Assembly: GCA_027452205.1 (NCBI GenBank)
Contig: DAIDGV010000023.1
Span: 62,001-126,000 of the forward strand
Direction of reading: 5' to 3'
DNA length: 64,000 nt
From: a candidate division FCPU426 bacterium
Lineage (GTDB): Bacteria; Oederibacteriota; Muellerivitia; Muellerivitales; Muellerivitaceae
The notes beneath the pieces are model-generated. The model saw only the letters and a program-made list of their open reading frames with translations. It ran no database searches and was not told where the DNA came from. This document shows, piece after piece, positions 11,019-38,361 of the stretch. Made by a program: the position numbers and the translations under genes. Numbering within the stretch: position 1 is the stretch's first letter; each line of letters opens with the position of its first letter.

Positions 11019-12569
11019 TCAATTCCTGAACTCGCTGGGACTGCGCTTGACCAACTTATGGAACAAACGGCTGAAATGGTCCCGGTTCTTATAGCCCACC
11101 TGATAAGCGATCTCCCCGATGGACAGGGAACTTTTCTTTAAAAGGACCTTGGCACGCTCCATTTTGGTCTCGTTAATGTATTGCAGGGGGGTCTGACGGG
11201 TGCTTTCCTTGAAGATCCGGATGAAATGCTCGGGTGTGACATTGAGGTATTTGGCAATCTCCTCGACTTTGATGGTCTTTTCCAGGTTGGTCTGGATATA
11301 CCCAATGGCTTTGGCGGTCAGGCCTGAATAAAGCTGTTGGGGTAATAGGGAAGCGAACCGATCTTCCATTCGGTCGATGGTCTCGGCGGAGGAAGCTTTT
11401 CCTTCCAGGAAAAAGGTCAACTCTTGGCCTCCGATGGAGAGCCAATCCAAATAATCCCCCTGAAAATAGCCGCATTCCTCCATGATCTTTCCGTGCCGCA
11501 GGAAGAACTCCGCCTGGTCTAGATAAGGCCGCTTTTGCCGCAGCAATTTCTCCAAATAGACGGATTTCATTCCGGGAAAGGGCGTTCCCAGATTTCCCGC
11601 GTACCAGTTCTGGAAGGGATCTTCCATGATCTTGACCAGCGCCTTGGAAGCGGCCTCGGGATAGCGGGTGTTCTTGGGAATGACGTAATTCAGGCCGCCG
11701 ACCATGGACTTGCCCGGTGTCTTGAAACTGGCGGAGGGGAGGGGACACCAGCCGAACTTGTCCCTTTCGCTTGCGGGTAATTGATTGATCATCTCGATCC
11801 CGTCGGACCAATGGTGCATGAAGACGCAATGGCCTTCCAGGAAGGCGCGGTAGGGGTTCGAATAATCCCAGGTCAGGACATAAGGCGGGATCATCCCATT
11901 CTTGAAAAAACGCTCAATTTGCTTGAGGGCGGTCTCCAGGGCTTTTCGGTTCAATACCCAGTTGGGGCCGTTCTCATAAAGGTCCGCGCCCTGGGACCAA
12001 AGATAGTCCAGGAAGACCGAGAAACGAATAGGGGCGTTGAAGTTGATCAGTAGTCCGAGCAATTCCGCGCTGTTCTCGCCCTTGAGGATCGTGAGGGTTT
12101 GTTCCTCCAGGTCGTCCCAGGTCTGTGGGGGCTCAAAAAAATATTTCTTCAAAAGGTCTCGGCGATAAAAAAGAAGGCGGATCGAAACGTGCTGGGGCAC
12201 GCTGAAGAGATTGTTACCGACCACGCCCTTGCGCCAACCCATATCCAGGAAAGTATATTGATAGCTGGGGAAGAGATTCTCCAGAGGTTGTAAAAGTCCT
12301 TGCCGCCCATAGTGCGCGGCGGCACCCAAATTGGTGATGGCCAATAGTCCTAGATGGGTCTCAGAGGCGTAAAGTGAGGCGGGTTTAGCGTCTTTTGCCG
12401 GTTCCCACTGGATCTCTTTCTTGCCTTGAAAGAGCCTGTCCTTTTCCAAATGCCGCCGCAACGCTTTGGTATAGATGGATTTTTGCGCTTCATCGGGGAA
12501 GAAGGGATAGCCCAGTTCCATGATGTTCGTCTTTTTGTTCTTGGGTACGCCCGGTCTTTTTGAACTCAA
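11019..12569 (-). CDS. Solute-binding-protein/AraC HTH fusion: candidate one-component sugar sensor and regulator
   Basis: About 516 residues in two parts. Residues 20-400 resemble an extracellular solute-binding protein of ABC sugar importers (SBP_bac_1): LLAITNLG, LFSVPQHVSIRLLFYRRDLL, PPQTWDDLEEQTLTIL, AFLEGHCVFMHHWSDG and GGLNYVIPKNTRYPEAASKAL. The last 100 residues are an AraC/XylS DNA-binding domain with two HTHs (KVEEIAKYLNVTPEHFIRIFKE and SIGEIAYQVGYKNRDHFSRLFHK). There is no signal peptide or membrane segment, so it should sense a cytosolic ligand directly. The open frame extends to 12635, but those codons overlap a tandem operator; a TTG at 12569 has AGAGGGA six bases upstream and is preferred. 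Divergent from the GH16-GH18 enzyme gene it probably controls. Confidence 0.85.
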   Translation of the reverse strand: MSSKRPGVPKNKKTNIMELGYPFFPDEAQKSIYTKALRRHLEKDRLFQGKKEIQWEPAKDAKPASLYASETHLGLLAITNLGAAAHYGRQGLLQPLENLFPSYQYTFLDMGWRKGVVGNNLFSVPQHVSIRLLFYRRDLLKKYFFEPPQTWDDLEEQTLTILKGENSAELLGLLINFNAPIRFSVFLDYLWSQGADLYENGPNWVLNRKALETALKQIERFFKNGMIPPYVLTWDYSNPYRAFLEGHCVFMHHWSDGIEMINQLPASERDKFGWCPLPSASFKTPGKSMVGGLNYVIPKNTRYPEAASKALVKIMEDPFQNWYAGNLGTPFPGMKSVYLEKLLRQKRPYLDQAEFFLRHGKIMEECGYFQGDYLDWLSIGGQELTFFLEGKASSAETIDRMEDRFASLLPQQLYSGLTAKAIGYIQTNLEKTIKVEEIAKYLNVTPEHFIRIFKESTRQTPLQYINETKMERAKVLLKKSSLSIGEIAYQVGYKNRDHFSRLFHKLVKRSPSEFRN

Positions 12570-12634: not shown

Positions 12635-12668
12635 TCAACTTTAGTCATATCATATCAAGAATGGTCAT
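12635..12668. promoter_or_regulatory. Tandem AraC-type operator, copy A
   Basis: Two direct half-sites, TCAACTTTAGTCAT and TCAAGAATGGTCAT, begin exactly 20 bp apart (12635 and 12655). They lie between the fusion regulator and the divergent GH16-GH18 gene. The same two-half-site arrangement occurs at 34382. Two-turn direct repeats are typical of AraC-family binding. Confidence 0.7.
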
Positions 12669-12810
12669 GTGATTTAAATACTTCTTCCAGGTACCAAAGG
12701 CTAAGCTTTCTATGGTTTCGAAGGGCATCAATCCCTGTGCCCGGGAAAGCCTATTATCCCCTGAATGTTGTGTGTTTAAGGGCATTTTCGGTCTTCGGAC
12801 GGAGGGTTCT

Positions 12811-15800
12811 TTGAAGAGAACTGATCACATGTCTCATATCGTTCGTTGTTCCATGAAAACGGTTTCAGTGGTGATTTTCGCTTTCCTCCTCCTCTTCACC
12901 CGGCAAGCCTTGGCGGATTACAGTTATGAAAACATCCCGGCGGGCTATGGCCTGGCTTGGAGCGACGAGTTCAACGGTGCCGTCGGCAGTTTGCCTAACT
13001 CCGCCAATTGGTCCTATGACACGGGGATCAATCAACCCAACAACGAACTGGAAAACTACACCAACAGCACTAATAACGTCCATGTGATCAGCGATCCCAA
13101 CGCTGTGGATGGTAAGTCCCTCGTCATCATCGCCCAAGATCCGGGCGGTAATAACGATCAAATGGGAAACTACACTTCAGCCCGCATCGATACCGCGGAC
13201 AAACAAACCTTCACCTACGGCTATATGGAAGCGCGCGTGCGCATGTCTTATGGGCAGGGAATCTGGCCCGCCTTTTGGATGCTGGGCAATGACATCAACC
13301 ACGGCACCAACTGGCCCTATTGCGATGAGATCGACATCATGGAAAACATCGGCAATACCGGTGACCAAGGAACCAACCACATGTCGCTTCACGATGGAAA
13401 CGACACTACCTTCTATCCGGCGCTTCCGGGTGGACAGCTTTATCACAATGCTTATCACACCTTCGCGGCCTTGTGGCAACCCAACCAGATCCAGTTCTTT
13501 GTGGACGGAAATCTGATGGTGACCGATACGCCGGCCAGCATGGGCAATAACTGGGCTTTCAACAACAATCCGAATTTCTTCCTCTTGAACTGTGCCGTGG
13601 GCGGCGCTTGGCCCGGCAACCCCGACAGCAGCACGTCTTTCCCGCAGACCATGTATGTGGACTATGTGCGCGCTTACCAGACCGGGTTCGCCACCCCCAC
13701 GCCGGTGGTCCAATCCACCTGGCGCGTGCGTTGCGGCGGCGACAACTATACGGATAGTCAAGGCAATCTTTGGACGGCGGATAGCAATTTCACCGGCGGT
13801 TGGCCCGCGGCCAACACCGGCACCGCTGTGTCCGGCGCTTTGCCCGCATCTTCGGACGGCACTTTATACCAATGGGAACGCTACGGTAATACTACCGGCG
13901 GCCAGACGCTGACCTATACCTTCAATGTCCCTACTGGTTCCAATTACCAGGTCACGATGAAGTTCGCGGAAGACTACTGGACCGCAGCGGGCCAACGTTT
14001 ATTCAACTACGCGATCAATGGCACGACCGAAGCCACCAATTTTGATATCTTTGCCAACGCAGGCGGACAGTTCAAAGCCCTCGACAAGGTCTATAACAAC
14101 ATCACCCCGAATTCGAACGGACAGATCGTCATCACCTTGTCCCCGGGCAGCGCAGACAATCCGAAAGTCGACGCCATTCAAGTCGTCCCCATGGCGGGCG
14201 GTGCCACCAACACAGCTACTTATACCCCGACCGCTTTAGCCACCAATACGCCCACCGCCACCGCGACCCAAGTTGCCGGGAACAGTGTTTGGCGCGTGCG
14301 CGCCGGTGGACCTGCCTATACGGATAGCCAAGGTAATGTTTGGGCAGCCGATGAGAACTTCACCGGCGGTACTGCCGCTACCGGCACCAACGCCATTTCA
14401 GGCGCCTTGCCCAATTCGGGCGATCAAGCCCTGTACCAAGACCAGCGCTATGCCTCCACGTTCAGCTATAGCTTTGCCGTGCCGACGGGTTCCTATCAAG
14501 TGCTCCTCAAGTTCGCGGAAACCTATTGGACCGCCTCGGGTCAACGGGTCTTTAATGTGGGCATCAACGGTTCCACGGTCTTGACCAATTTCGACATCTT
14601 CGCCACCGCAGGTGGCGCCAATATCGCCGTGGATAAGGTGTTCAATAACATCTCGCCGGTGAATGGCGTCATTACGCTTAATTTTGGCCCCGCCAGCGCG
14701 GACCAGGCCATGATCACGGCCATCCAGATCGCGCCTCAGTCCCAAGCCCAAGCCACACCGACACGCACCTTTACGGCCACACCGACCACGGGCTCCTCCG
14801 GGGGTAAATTGCCCTATCAAGTGGTGGGTTACTGCTATACGGGCAATAAGGCCAGCGTCTCCAGCCTGACCGGGTCCGGCGGCAGCATCAATTGGAGTAC
14901 CGACGTTCCTTGGCAGGACCTGACGGTGGCGGTGGACGCTTTCATGATCCCCAACACCAATAACACCTTCAGCAACGGGGGCGCCAAGAACGCGGCCCTG
15001 ATCAGCGCGGCCCACGCCCATGGCGTACGTTGTATCGTCTCCATCGGCGGCGGCGGGCAGGACGGCGCTTTTCCGACCGTCTGTACCTCGGCTAACCGGC
15101 AAAATTTCGCCTCGGCGGTCACCGCTTTGATCGCCCAATATGGTTATGACGGCGCGGATATCGACTGGGAAAGCCCGAATTCGGCGGCCCAGTCTGACGC
15201 GACGGTCATGATGCAGGACATCTACACCAAGATCAAAGCCATGGCGCCCTCCAGCGTGGACGGCCTGCCCCGTACGTTGTCTTTCGCCACGGTGGATTAT
15301 GTGTTCGGTATCTACAACATGACCACTTTGGCCAATTACACGGACTGGCTCTTCTATATGGGTTACGACTGGTACGACTGTCCGAACCTCTATAACGGTC
15401 CCTTGAACCTGGAAAAGAGCGGTATCGCCAGCATCACCAATGGCACCACCTGGAGTTACCCGATCAACAAGGTGGTCCTGGGCTGCCCGCTCTATACGAA
15501 CGACTACAACACGTCCAATTGCACGGCCAGCGAATATAACGTCCTGTCCATCCTGCATTTGGGCACGCCGGGTTCCTATAACAGCACCTACGCCGAACAG
15601 GCCTATACGGCGCCCAACGGCCATACGGTCTATGTGGATACGGCTCAAAGCTATTGCGACAAGATCAATTACGCTTATAGCAACCACCTGAAAGGCATCG
15701 GCATGTGGGATGTGGGTATGGCCCTGCCTTATACCGACAGCGCTGTCTCGGGTATCTGGAATACCATCGGAGCTCAAGCGAGCTGTTTGAACATCGGCCC

Positions 15801-17595
15801 TACAGCTACCCCGACTAGGACGGCTACCCCGGTGATCGCCTCCACTTGGCGCGTCAACGCGGGAGGTCCCCAATATACGGACAGCCTGGGCAATGTCTGG
15901 GCGGCGGACGAGAATTTCACCGGCGGCACCGCCGCAGTGACGACCTCGACCATTACCGGTGCCTTGCCCACGGGGGCCCAGACGCTGTATCAATCGCAGC
16001 GCTATGGCAACCCCTTTAGCTACAGCTTCAACGTGCCAGCGGGGAACTATCAGGTCACTTTGAAGTTCACTGAGACCTACTGGACCGCGGCGGGCCAGAG
16101 AGTGTTCAACGTCTCGGTCAACGGTTCGACCGTTCTGACGAACTTTGACATCCTGAAGACGGCGGGATCGCAGAACAAGGCCATCGACGAGGTGTTCAAT
16201 AACATCGCCCCGTCTGGCGGGACCGTCACCATCACTTTGGGACCTGCCAGCGTGGATAACGCGATGGTGGACGCTATCCAGATCGTCCCGCAGCCTTCCA
16301 CCCCAACTTTTACGCCGTCCAACACCACCACCAAGCCGTTCACGGCCACCAATACGGTGACGTCAACGCAGACCTCGACGATGTCATCCACGATGATCTC
16401 AACGAACACCCTGACCGATACGGCCACGGTGGCGAGTACATCGACGAACACGTCGACCATGACCAACACCAGCACTGTCTCCAATACCGCTACGAATAGT
16501 TCTACGGTGACGGCCCCTAACACGGCTACGGAAACTTCGACGCTGACGCCGGTGTTGACCAGTACGCCCACCAACACCAATACGGCAGCTAATACGGCCA
16601 CGTCCACGAACACAGCGGGCAACACCGCTACCTCGACGAATACGGTCATCAATAGTGCCACCAATACCAGCACGCCGCCCAATACGGCGACCAATACCAA
16701 TACGGCCTTGAACACGGCGACCAGCACCAGTACGTCCGTGAACACCGCCACGAACACGTTGACCAGCACGAATACGGCCCCTAACACGGCCACTTCGAGC
16801 AATACACCGGTCAATACGGCCACTTCAACGTTGTCCTTCACCTCGACGGCAACCCGGACCAATACGGCGCTCAACACCGCGACCGCGACGGCCTCGTCGA
16901 CGAAGACCTGGACCGCGGTATTCACCAACACTTCGACGCCGACGCTGACCTTGTCGCCGACGAAGACGAATACCTTCACCTTTACCGCGACCAAGACCAA
17001 CACCGGCACACCGACCAAGACGGCCACGCCGTCCGGTCCTTGCGCGGGGGTCCCGGCTTGGAACGGCAATATGGTCTATTACGCCATCGGGGCAAAGGTG
17101 ACTTATAACGGGGAACTGTACCAATGTATCCAGGCCCATACGTCTCTTTCGACCTGGATGCCCTCGGTTACCCCCGCTTTGTGGCAAGACCTGGGCACTT
17201 GCGGGGCCACGGGCAATGTGGTGCAGATGGCACAGGTGCCGGGCCAAGCTTTAATCCAAAGCGCGAACCCCAAGACGCCGGTGGAAACGCCTCAAGTGCC
17301 CACTTCGACGCCGACGGTCGCCATCGGCAACCATCCTTTGGTCGTCCCGAATCCGGTCACTTCGGATACGGCGAACCTGCGCCTGCCCATGACGATGGCG
17401 CAGGACGTGTCGGTAAAGATCTACACGGTGTCCATGCGGTTGGTACAGACGGTGAACTACGGAACCGTGAACTCGGGTAGCGTGCCTGTGAAACTGAACG
17501 ATAAGAACAACATCCAGTTGTCGAACGGACTTTATTACTTCCGTGTCCAAGCGAACGGCATTTCTTGGATCGTGAAAGTGCTCGTATTGCGCTGA
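12811..17595 (+). CDS. Secreted bifunctional GH16 (laminarinase-like) + GH18 (chitinase-like) enzyme with three malectin domains and CBM5/12
   Basis: About 1594 residues from a TTG preceded by GGAGGG at four bases; other starts are possible at 12712, 12829 and 12853. Order: signal peptide (SVVIFAFLLLFTRQALAD); GH16 at about 28-295 with the laminarinase active site DEIDIMENIG (Glu173, Asp175, Glu178); malectin/CBM57-like domains at about 300-460 and 491-650; GH18 at about 666-985 with DGADIDWE (DxxDxDxE, acid Glu787) and SIGGGG; a third malectin at about 1010-1160; a Thr/Asn linker; a CBM5/12 chitin-binding module at about 1409-1465 (AWNGNMVYYAIGAKVTYNG); and the sorting domain ending VKVLVLR. 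It should cleave beta-1,3-glucan and chitin outside the cell, as in fungal walls. Divergent from the fusion regulator. Confidence 0.9.
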   Translation: MKRTDHMSHIVRCSMKTVSVVIFAFLLLFTRQALADYSYENIPAGYGLAWSDEFNGAVGSLPNSANWSYDTGINQPNNELENYTNSTNNVHVISDPNAVDGKSLVIIAQDPGGNNDQMGNYTSARIDTADKQTFTYGYMEARVRMSYGQGIWPAFWMLGNDINHGTNWPYCDEIDIMENIGNTGDQGTNHMSLHDGNDTTFYPALPGGQLYHNAYHTFAALWQPNQIQFFVDGNLMVTDTPASMGNNWAFNNNPNFFLLNCAVGGAWPGNPDSSTSFPQTMYVDYVRAYQTGFATPTPVVQSTWRVRCGGDNYTDSQGNLWTADSNFTGGWPAANTGTAVSGALPASSDGTLYQWERYGNTTGGQTLTYTFNVPTGSNYQVTMKFAEDYWTAAGQRLFNYAINGTTEATNFDIFANAGGQFKALDKVYNNITPNSNGQIVITLSPGSADNPKVDAIQVVPMAGGATNTATYTPTALATNTPTATATQVAGNSVWRVRAGGPAYTDSQGNVWAADENFTGGTAATGTNAISGALPNSGDQALYQDQRYASTFSYSFAVPTGSYQVLLKFAETYWTASGQRVFNVGINGSTVLTNFDIFATAGGANIAVDKVFNNISPVNGVITLNFGPASADQAMITAIQIAPQSQAQATPTRTFTATPTTGSSGGKLPYQVVGYCYTGNKASVSSLTGSGGSINWSTDVPWQDLTVAVDAFMIPNTNNTFSNGGAKNAALISAAHAHGVRCIVSIGGGGQDGAFPTVCTSANRQNFASAVTALIAQYGYDGADIDWESPNSAAQSDATVMMQDIYTKIKAMAPSSVDGLPRTLSFATVDYVFGIYNMTTLANYTDWLFYMGYDWYDCPNLYNGPLNLEKSGIASITNGTTWSYPINKVVLGCPLYTNDYNTSNCTASEYNVLSILHLGTPGSYNSTYAEQAYTAPNGHTVYVDTAQSYCDKINYAYSNHLKGIGMWDVGMALPYTDSAVSGIWNTIGAQASCLNIGPTATPTRTATPVIASTWRVNAGGPQYTDSLGNVWAADENFTGGTAAVTTSTITGALPTGAQTLYQSQRYGNPFSYSFNVPAGNYQVTLKFTETYWTAAGQRVFNVSVNGSTVLTNFDILKTAGSQNKAIDEVFNNIAPSGGTVTITLGPASVDNAMVDAIQIVPQPSTPTFTPSNTTTKPFTATNTVTSTQTSTMSSTMISTNTLTDTATVASTSTNTSTMTNTSTVSNTATNSSTVTAPNTATETSTLTPVLTSTPTNTNTAANTATSTNTAGNTATSTNTVINSATNTSTPPNTATNTNTALNTATSTSTSVNTATNTLTSTNTAPNTATSSNTPVNTATSTLSFTSTATRTNTALNTATATASSTKTWTAVFTNTSTPTLTLSPTKTNTFTFTATKTNTGTPTKTATPSGPCAGVPAWNGNMVYYAIGAKVTYNGELYQCIQAHTSLSTWMPSVTPALWQDLGTCGATGNVVQMAQVPGQALIQSANPKTPVETPQVPTSTPTVAIGNHPLVVPNPVTSDTANLRLPMTMAQDVSVKIYTVSMRLVQTVNYGTVNSGSVPVKLNDKNNIQLSNGLYYFRVQANGISWIVKVLVLR

Positions 17596-34381: not shown

Positions 34382-34415
34382 TCAATTTTAGTCATGACAT
34401 ATCAATTTTAGTCAT
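34382..34415. promoter_or_regulatory. Tandem AraC-type operator, copy B
   Basis: TCAATTTTAGTCAT occurs twice, at 34382 and 34402, identical in all 14 bases and exactly 20 bp apart. It matches copy A (12635-12668) in spacing and sequence and lies 117 bp upstream of the second GH18 gene. It probably binds the solute-binding/AraC fusion regulator. Confidence 0.7.
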
Positions 34416-34532
34416 TTCATTTTGGACCCGGAAAAACAATTGCGCGATAAGCTTTTTATCGGTCCAGAAGCGACGCGTTTGTGGGGTGAAGTTCATTTTG
34501 CCGCAAGCTGGAACTATCTGCTGGGGGGATTT

Positions 34533-36992
34533 TTGACAAGACGAGGGAAATCGACTCATAACGTTCGCCGAGTCCTAAAAGCGCTTTTGCCGCTCTGGGT
34601 CCTCCTCTATACTCCCGCCTTCGTCCAGGCCGCTCCGCCTTACGCGGTGATCTGTTACGCCTCTACCGGTAATGAATCCAGCGCCACCAACATCAACGCC
34701 GGCGCGGGGCCGGGTATCAATTGGACCACCGACGTTCCCTGGAACGATATTACGGTCGTCGCCGACGCGTTCCTGCTGCCCAACGCCAACTATACCTTCA
34801 GTAATGGCGGGGCCAGGGAAGCCGCGCTCATCATTCCTGCTCACGCCAATGGGGTGCGTTGTATCGTCGCCCTCAGCGCCGGAGCCTTTTCCACCCTTTG
34901 TCAGCCGGGCAATACGGGGCCTTTCGCCTCGGCGGTCACCGCCATGATGATGCAGTATGGCTATGACGGCGTGGAGGTGGACTGGGAACAGACGGGGGTC
35001 GCCAGCCAAGCCAATGCCACTGCCATGATGCAGGCCATGTATACGGCTATCAAAGCCCTGCCCAATTCCACCGTGGACAATCTGCCTCGGACGCTTTCCT
35101 TCACCACCAATCCGTCCTATTCCCAGATCTACAACATGACCACCCTGGGCAGTTATACCGACTGGTGCTTTTTTATGGGCTACGACTGGTATGACACCCC
35201 CGCCACTTACGCCAATGGGCCCCTGAACGGGGTCAATCCATCCATCGCCGGGACAATCGCCAGCATGACCAACGGCAGCCAGTGGAGCTATCCCATCAGC
35301 AAAATGGTGGTGGGCTGTCCGCTCTATACGAACGACTATAACGCGGGGGTCTATTACGACACCCTCTCGATCCTTCACCTGGGTACCGCCCAGGGCTATA
35401 ACGCTTCTTACGCCGAACAGGCCTACACCGCCCCCAATGGCAACACCGTTTATGTGGATACGGCCCAAAGCTTTTGTGACAAGATCAATTGGTCTTTGAC
35501 CTCGGGCTGCAAGGGCATCGGTTTGTGGGACATGGGCCAAGCCCTGCCTTATACGGATAGCGCGGTGACGGCGATCTGGAACACCATCGGCGGCCAAGCT
35601 TCTTGCCTCAATTTGGGTCCCACCAATACGCCCACCAAAACACCCACCCCGGTGGTAGCTTCCACATGGCGTGTGGTGGCGGGCGGCCCCGCTCATACGG
35701 ATTGCAACGGCAATGTTTGGGCGGCGGACGAAAATTATGTCGGCGGTTTGCCAGCCACCTCGACAAATACGATCACTGGCGCTTTGCCTTGCACCACCGA
35801 CCAGGCCCTTTACCAGGACCAACGCTACGGCAATCCCTTTAGCTATGTCTTTAATGTACCGGCGGGGTCATATCAGGTCACGCTCAAGTTCGCCGAAACC
35901 TATTGGACGGCGGCGGGGGCCCGGCAATTCAATGTGTCCATCAACGGCACGACCGAACTGACCAATTTTGATGTTTACGCCACCGCGGGCGGGCAAAACA
36001 TCGCGGTCGACCGGGTATTCAATAATATCGCGCCCTCGGGCGGGGCCATCACCATCACCTTGGGGCCCGCCAGCGTGGACAATGCTTTGGTCTCCTCACT
36101 CCAGATCATCCCGCAGCCTGCCACCGCCACGGCCACTTCCACCCATACCTCTACGGCGGCCTCGACCCATACCGCCACCTCAACCTCCACCGCGACCTCG
36201 ACGGCCACCCACAGTTCGACCTCCACCTCGACCAGCGTGGTCAGTTCCACAGCGACCCAAACCAGCACCCAGACCCCCTCCAACAGCCCCACTGCGTCCG
36301 CGACCGCCAGTTCAACGCCCACCGCCACCGCCTCGGGCACCTTAACGCCGGTCAATACCAACACAGCGGCGAATACGGCTTCATCCACAGCGACCGCCAC
36401 TTCGTCCAATACCGCCACCTCAACGTCCACGTCCAGCATGACGCAGACCTCTACGGCCACGCTGACCAATACGGCCACCAGCACGCCGGCCGTTCCCACG
36501 GCGACCCAGACCAACAGCTCGACCCTCAACAATCCCGCGACCCATACGTCGACCGCGACCGCCAGCTCGACCAACACCCGAACGCCGTCCTCAACGGCGA
36601 CCGCCGCTTTCAGCAATACGGCGACGGCTACGGCCAAAGCGCCGACGGCCACCTGTACCACTACTGCCACCCCGACGCTGACCTCCACCACCGCGCCGCC
36701 GACGCTTACCTCCACGCCTAGCCTGGGTCACCCGGTGGTCTATCCCAATCCGGTCACCTCGGACAATGCCACCCTTCAATTACCGGTGATGAACGCAACC
36801 CATGTCACGGTCGAGATCCTTACCCTGGCGATGCGTAAAGTGCAGACCATATCGGTCGCGCGGGTGGAAGGGAATACCCTGCCGGTCCGGTTGGCCGATA
36901 AGGGGGGGACGACGCTGGCCAATGGGCTTTATTACTTCCTGATCCAAGCCAATGGGCAGAGGTGGATCACCAAGGTCCTGGTCCTGAGATGA
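34533..36992 (+). CDS. Secreted GH18 (chitinase-like) enzyme with malectin domain, Thr-rich linker and C-terminal sorting domain
   Basis: About 819 residues from a TTG that follows GGGGGGA; the open frame begins at a TTG at 34422. The signal peptide (LKALLPLWVLLYTPAFVQA) leads to a GH18 barrel (about 32-345) closely similar to that of the 12.8-kb enzyme. Its active-site motif is DGVEVDWE: the catalytic Glu152 and preceding Asp150 are kept, but the second Asp of DxxDxDxE is Glu. A malectin-like domain (376-530), a Thr/Ser/Ala linker and the sorting domain (VVYPNPVTSDNATL ... TKVLVLR) follow. It should act on chitin or a related GlcNAc polymer outside the cell. The tandem operator upstream places it in the same regulon as the GH16-GH18 gene. 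Confidence 0.87.
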   Translation: MTRRGKSTHNVRRVLKALLPLWVLLYTPAFVQAAPPYAVICYASTGNESSATNINAGAGPGINWTTDVPWNDITVVADAFLLPNANYTFSNGGAREAALIIPAHANGVRCIVALSAGAFSTLCQPGNTGPFASAVTAMMMQYGYDGVEVDWEQTGVASQANATAMMQAMYTAIKALPNSTVDNLPRTLSFTTNPSYSQIYNMTTLGSYTDWCFFMGYDWYDTPATYANGPLNGVNPSIAGTIASMTNGSQWSYPISKMVVGCPLYTNDYNAGVYYDTLSILHLGTAQGYNASYAEQAYTAPNGNTVYVDTAQSFCDKINWSLTSGCKGIGLWDMGQALPYTDSAVTAIWNTIGGQASCLNLGPTNTPTKTPTPVVASTWRVVAGGPAHTDCNGNVWAADENYVGGLPATSTNTITGALPCTTDQALYQDQRYGNPFSYVFNVPAGSYQVTLKFAETYWTAAGARQFNVSINGTTELTNFDVYATAGGQNIAVDRVFNNIAPSGGAITITLGPASVDNALVSSLQIIPQPATATATSTHTSTAASTHTATSTSTATSTATHSSTSTSTSVVSSTATQTSTQTPSNSPTASATASSTPTATASGTLTPVNTNTAANTASSTATATSSNTATSTSTSSMTQTSTATLTNTATSTPAVPTATQTNSSTLNNPATHTSTATASSTNTRTPSSTATAAFSNTATATAKAPTATCTTTATPTLTSTTAPPTLTSTPSLGHPVVYPNPVTSDNATLQLPVMNATHVTVEILTLAMRKVQTISVARVEGNTLPVRLADKGGTTLANGLYYFLIQANGQRWITKVLVLR

Positions 36993-37502: not shown

Positions 37503-37980
37503 GATTATTTTCTCCTGTGCGCACAGTTTTTTCTGTGCGGAAATGAATGACCAAAAATTGAAAGATTTGGATGAAAAAAGGGCCGGCTGGATCTGGTGAT
37601 GAATGGGTTCGGCCATTCGACCGCCGGTTGGGTATTACGATTGTCCCTGAAATGATTCCATGAAGAAGGGTACTGCGCAATCCCCCGGCCTAAGAAAGTC
37701 GGTGTTTTTTTAGGGACTTAAATGATGTGTTAATAGCTATTTTTGGGTAATATCTGGCTCCTTTAGGTTTTATATTATGTGTTAAGTTTCCCGTGATACC
37801 TTATTTTCATGCCCGTTCAGGGGCGGATAACCCGAAGGGGTCCCGCTTATCGTCTTTGGTCATGCCGTAATAATTTCGGTCATTTCGTTTGATCCCTCAG
37901 CCCGGATCGCGCGCGAGGTTGTCCCGCGCTGAAAAAACGCGCGGGCTGCGCGTTGGAACGGAGGGCTCAAGGGATCGTTC
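37503..37980. other. Intergenic region upstream of the STAS gene
   Basis: About 480 bp between divergent genes. Apart from a possible tandem GTCAT site (37859-37883) I see no RNA gene, repeat or convincing promoter. Confidence 0.4.
37859..37883. promoter_or_regulatory. Possible third tandem AraC-type operator
   Basis: GTCAT occurs at 37859 and 37879, exactly 20 bp apart. Over the 27 bases from the first GTCAT, 21 match copy B. It lies about 100 bp upstream of the STAS gene. The outer TCAA elements are degraded, so it is a weaker candidate than copies A and B. Confidence 0.35.
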
Positions 37981-38361
37981 ATGCAAAAATTCACCATCAC
38001 GACGCGGGCCGCGGCATCGGATCCGGCTCTTTCGATCCTGGACCTGGCGGGCGTCCTGGACGTCAATACGGTCGGGGACCTGGAAACGGGATTTGAGCAG
38101 TTGTGGAGGGAAAAGCGGCACAAGGTCATCCTTAATTTTGAAAAGCTGACCTATGTTTCCAGCGCGGGCATCTGGCTGCTGCTTGACCGGGCCCAGGATA
38201 TCCGGAAAAAACGCGGGGACCTGATGCTTGTCGGTTTGCGCCCCGACATTTACAAACTGTTCGATCTTTTGGAACTTCCGATGTTGTTCTATATCCTGGA
38301 GACCGAGCAAGAGGCCGTCACGGCCTTTGGGACAGGCAACTTCCGAACGGATCGACCTTAA
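37981..38361 (+). CDS. STAS-domain anti-sigma-factor antagonist
   Basis: A 126-residue cytosolic protein of the SpoIIAA/RsbV type. The conserved phosphorylation loop is TYVSSAGIWLLL, preceded by DLAGVLDVNTVGDLETGF and a KVILNFEKL strand. In this family, dephosphorylated antagonists bind the anti-sigma kinase and free a sigma factor. No anti-sigma kinase or PP2C phosphatase is encoded nearby. It overlaps the convergent oxidase gene by four bases at a shared TTAA. A candidate AraC-type site lies upstream. Confidence 0.87.
   Translation: MQKFTITTRAAASDPALSILDLAGVLDVNTVGDLETGFEQLWREKRHKVILNFEKLTYVSSAGIWLLLDRAQDIRKKRGDLMLVGLRPDIYKLFDLLELPMLFYILETEQEAVTAFGTGNFRTDRP

Follow-up and report, generated by a model that had tools for sequence, protein, structure and literature searches.

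AraC/XylS regulators bind direct-repeat half-sites that are about 20-21 bp apart. Some regulators are also known that carry a solute-binding domain. In E. coli SgrR such a domain is fused to a DNA-binding domain, and the gene adjoins its divergent target. The HTH class and SBP family of SgrR are other than those of the regulator described here. In Btr (YbbB) of Bacillus a cytoplasmic substrate-binding domain is fused to an AraC HTH, and this gene too adjoins its target. E. coli XylR and Vibrio XylRA have an N-terminal sugar-binding domain and a C-terminal AraC HTH, and the DNA that XylRA binds consists of AT-rich direct repeats in front of xylanase genes (PMC12125979).

The window, meaning the whole stretch of 64,000 nucleotides that was analysed, encodes a fusion regulator whose nearest analogues among known systems are XylR and Btr, and which is neither. 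Like XylR and XylRA it has its sensor domain at the N-terminus, an AraC HTH at the C-terminus and (putative) AT-rich direct-repeat operators, and it too would control polysaccharide-utilisation genes. Unlike the type-I LacI/GalR fold of XylR, its sensor domain is a type-II SBP_bac_1/8 domain, similar to maltose-binding protein. The XylR structures 4fe4 and 4fe7 match the regulator through the HTH only. With Btr it shares the general design and the place next to a (putative) target, but in Btr the HTH is N-terminal of a siderophore-type, FeuA-like SBP. The NCBIfam equivalog for Btr, NF049932, gives 48.3 bits over the HTH part only, where the cut-off is 900.

A paired repeat is found beside this regulator and again in front of a distant chitinase gene. 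Very probably it is the binding site of such regulators, which would control secreted polysaccharide-digesting enzymes through it. We consider it likely, with good confidence, that one-component SBP-AraC HTH regulators, which form a small family, use the repeat as their operator. Upon meeting an oligosaccharide they would activate the rightward gene. For an uncultured lineage, this yields a prediction of the operator, regulator and targets that serve polysaccharide digestion. Type-II sugar-binding domains would also, as a counterpart of XylR, be at work inside the cell as sensors for transcription.

Table 1 Features of the window, in order of position
Feature	Position	Strand	Remarks
SBP_bac_1/8-AraC (HTH_18) fusion regulator	11019..12521	-	from profile matches
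Operator 1 (predicted)	12635..12668	+	two direct half-sites, 20 bp start to start; spacer atcata
Operator 1, first half-site	12635-12648		TCAACTTTAGTCAT
Operator 1, second half-site	12655-12668		TCAAGAATGGTCAT
Promoter-like TTTAAA-N18-TATGAT	12649..12678	-	reads toward regulator; 0.5 such matches expected by chance
Secreted GH16-malectin-malectin-GH18-malectin-CBM5/12 protein	12829..17595	+	divergent from regulator; ORF 12712-17595
Operator 2 (predicted)	34382..34415	+	two perfect TCAATTTTAGTCAT half-sites at 34382/34402, 20 bp start to start; spacer gacata
Secreted GH18-malectin protein	34535..36992	+	downstream of operator 2; ORF 34422-36992
Weak look-alike	37850..37883	+	TCGTCTTTGGTCAT-N6-ATAATTTCGGTCAT; upstream of STAS-domain gene 37981-38361

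The fusion regulator

The regulator, of 500 amino acids, consists of an SBP domain (PF01547 at 5.6e-16, PF13416 at 1e-15), which is of the SBP_bac_1/8 type, followed by a C-terminal double HTH (PF12833 at 1e-21, PF00165 at 3.8e-15), which places the protein in the AraC/XylS family. Its reading frame is open up to a TTG at 12638. Judging from the sequence, the ATG at 12521 is the most likely start; its counterpart in the paralogue described below is an internal ATG (MELGYPFF and MLLGFPFF).

By eye, no hydrophobic leader is visible in the N-terminus, MELGYPFFPDEAQKS, and the regulator should therefore be cytoplasmic. A missing export signal is what is expected of a cytoplasmic sensor.

The solved structures related to the SBP domain are mostly sugar-binding proteins. 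The top matches are SmoF, a series of ABC-transporter SBPs and trehalose/maltose-binding proteins, with the chitin-oligosaccharide proteins NagB1 and NagB2 lower in the list. An AlphaFold2 model based on a 3-sequence alignment is poor over this domain (mean pLDDT 43.6). No relatives of the regulator were found in viral contigs.

Predicted operator sites in the window

The sequence-only reading had reported paired half-sites, 20 bp apart, at 12635/12655 and 34382/34402, both next to GH18-malectin genes. The pairs are indeed present at these positions, as direct half-sites of 14 bp. Operator 1 has the fusion regulator on one side and the divergent GH16/GH18 gene on the other, and its second half-site is degenerate, with 3 mismatches. 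The neighbouring genes were also named correctly, with the refinement that the first one encodes the longer GH16-GH18-CBM5/12 protein of Table 1. The starts of the two secreted proteins, 12829 and a TTG at 34535, are predicted from their signal peptides.

Allowing up to 3 mismatches, 12 single half-sites are found in the window versus 11.75 expected, which is not above chance, so the signal resides in the pair. At a spacing of 20 bp the two sites have 0 and 3 mismatches out of 26, and the next best pair, at 37850, has 7. In two of three leave-one-out scans this look-alike, a degenerate double GTCAT repeat, again takes the place directly behind the true sites. It is without both TCAA boxes and is not accepted as an operator.

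When the two intergenic regions are compared, the top ungapped 34-mer match is the operator itself, with 27 of 34 bases identical; none of 1000 dinucleotide shuffles reaches this. The flanks show no obvious similarity (21/60 identical upstream, 11/40 downstream). This bears on the idea that the operator at 34382 is a non-functional leftover of a duplication of the GH18-malectin gene. The two proteins are 60% identical over 684 amino acids, which speaks for such a duplication, yet drift should not spare the operator alone while its flanks have become this different, and the site at 34382 is in fact the better of the two. A mere leftover is thus improbable.

Scans of the genome and the phylum

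A genome-wide motif scan had been named beforehand as a refuting test, in which the motif might turn up at random genes. The window's own genome (2.89 Mb) was searched with a relaxed double-motif pattern. Only three double sites are found, versus none for the reversed control pattern, and they are not at random genes: downstream of all three is a gene for a secreted carbohydrate-active protein.

The third site (C26:15847-15880, minus strand) played no part in the definition of the motif. The regulator's only full-length paralogue (51% identity) has its ATG 21 bp downstream of this site, which on its other side faces a secreted CBM5/12 protein. The spacing is again 20 bp, and with respect to regulator and target the site points the same way as at 12635. 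This ties the motif independently to this type of regulator and to secreted polysaccharide-active genes. The putative AraC regulon under the fusion protein, as first proposed, is supported by this third site.

The stretch from the paralogue's operator to the CBM5/12 gene contains a decayed, frame-shifted C-terminal copy of such a secreted protein (L041:14289-14714, minus strand, in the own genome). The position of this fragment counts against the explanation preferred here.

When 44 further genomes of the phylum, 117 Mb in all, were scanned in this way, a single match turned up, in G031, which is taken as chance. From this rate 0.025 matches are expected in the own genome, and the probability of at least three is about 2e-6. 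With a PWM made by leaving out one pair at a time, every real site comes out top among 167,308 positions (window plus C26 stretch).

The similarity of the two window sites had been called unlikely by chance at the outset, and this stands. The relaxed 34-bp pattern was picked after the fact, which is the one point in favour of coincidence. Given the shuffles, the single match elsewhere in the phylum and a third site found blind at the paralogue, chance similarity is very hard to believe.

A looser pattern, TTTRGTCAT-N11-TTTRGTCAT, delivers 11 extra matches, mostly with 3 mismatches. Since its control gives 6, these are regarded as mostly noise.

Two of the three genomic sites are divergent from regulators, and adjoin the only two compact SBP-AraC genes of the genome. 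This is difficult to reconcile with the sites belonging to another transcription factor that is unrelated to the fusion protein, for which candidates do exist, as the genome has genes for five more proteins with an AraC-type HTH. A distance of about 20 bp between direct repeats also suits an AraC dimer, as with XylRA (PMC12125979). We give such an unrelated factor little credence.

The double site is present at just two of eight GH18 loci; the other six are without it, a point against the preferred explanation. This is therefore not a general chitin regulon, and the regulon is small. Separately, other AraC-type HTH genes are found within a few kb of further GH18 or CBM5/12 genes of the own genome (G000:C21:25886, C13:14933 and C24:206110), which suggests a separate, local AraC regulator for each of several chitinase loci.

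Which regulator may read which site

In AraC, the first HTH reads the A box and the second HTH reads the B box. The TCAA box is present in six of six half-sites across the three operators. The other box is GTCAT in all four half-sites of the window, and GTCAA or GACAA at the C26 paralogue.

The HTHs of the window regulator and the paralogue are identical at 46 of 85 positions. Helix 3 is nearly the same in both (TPEH[FL]IR[IV]F), and helix 6 differs (NRDHFSRLF in the window regulator versus SLPHFSRLF). A constant helix 3 with a constant TCAA, and a varying helix 6 with a varying GTCAT, would fit each regulator reading its own site, in a comparison of two paralogues. For the site at 34382 this pattern, again from two paralogues, favours the window regulator as the probable binder.

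It could also be that each paralogue controls its own divergent gene only, and that the main binder at 34382 is the C26 paralogue, or that both proteins bind there. Cross-binding is plausible with HTHs this similar and a nearly identical helix 3, and the 34382 half-sites share their central TTTTAG with the C26 half-sites. The 34382 half-sites end in GTCAT as at 12635, however, and the site shares a contig with the window regulator. We regard this division of labour as possible but unlikely, and continue to prefer the window regulator as the protein that would bind at 34382.

The only close orthologue of the regulator (59%) is in G018 (MAG DBS1-3.bin31). That gene is cut by the end of its contig, so that the N-terminus and promoter are off the contig. 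No double site was found elsewhere in this 76%-complete genome, which is a further point against the preferred explanation.

Proposed mechanism

In the mechanism that we infer, a cytoplasmic sugar-binding SBP domain and an AraC-type HTH together would form a one-component regulator. Two subunits would bind to the two direct half-sites, which are spaced by about two helical turns and each contain a TCAA box and a GTCAT box. The ligand of the SBP domain would be an oligosaccharide from the breakdown of chitin or beta-glucan. The sign of control would be positive: the ligand-bound regulator would switch on the rightward gene. The proposed targets are the GH16-GH18-CBM5/12 gene, the distant GH18-malectin chitinase gene and the gene for the CBM5/12 protein at the paralogue, or about three operons.

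The regulator's own expression is probably also controlled. The -10 of the promoter-like signal that reads toward the regulator falls between the two half-sites of operator 1, which suggests autoregulation. It is this overlap at 12635, together with the location of the site in the divergent region, that makes autoregulation probable. The operator of the paralogue contains TTGATT-N18-TATTAA by eye, which is below the search criteria. A search downstream of the three sites gave no consensus -35/-10; this counts against the mechanism, though it would suit dependence on an activator.

A wider family with a KaiC domain

The finding also points to a wider family of proteins. KaiC-SBP-AraC proteins are present in G010, G018, G030, G172 and G309. 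Their SBP and HTH are homologous to those of the window regulator and follow one another in the same way. The proteins are about 735-760 amino acids long, and are 24-40% identical where they can be aligned pairwise. What sets them apart is an extra N-terminal KaiC-type ATPase, which the window regulator and its paralogue are without. The KaiC domain is present in L043, L013, L081, L082 and L083, and was not recognised in L084.

By its sequence, the window regulator is the compact form of this family. The form without KaiC is seen in the own genome only, in two copies, and possibly in G018, whose gene lacks its N-terminus. Within the limited literature searched, no description of a fusion of KaiC, AraC and solute-binding domains was found.

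Somewhat speculatively, and with less than even confidence, these proteins may be a little-described class of intracellular glycan sensors. SBP domains similar to maltose-binding protein would have been recruited into the cytoplasm as AraC regulators, with a KaiC ATPase that was ancestral and then lost here. They would have direct-repeat operators of their own in front of divergent secreted polysaccharide-active genes, with recognition helix and operator co-evolving after duplication.

Of the genes for a KaiC ATPase, SBP and AraC HTH, the surroundings of two were inspected (L043:4442-6709 and L013:1492-3753, both on the minus strand), and both are next to genes for secreted-looking proteins. 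G010 and G030 contain several further candidate copies of similar length, the domains having been examined in one copy each.
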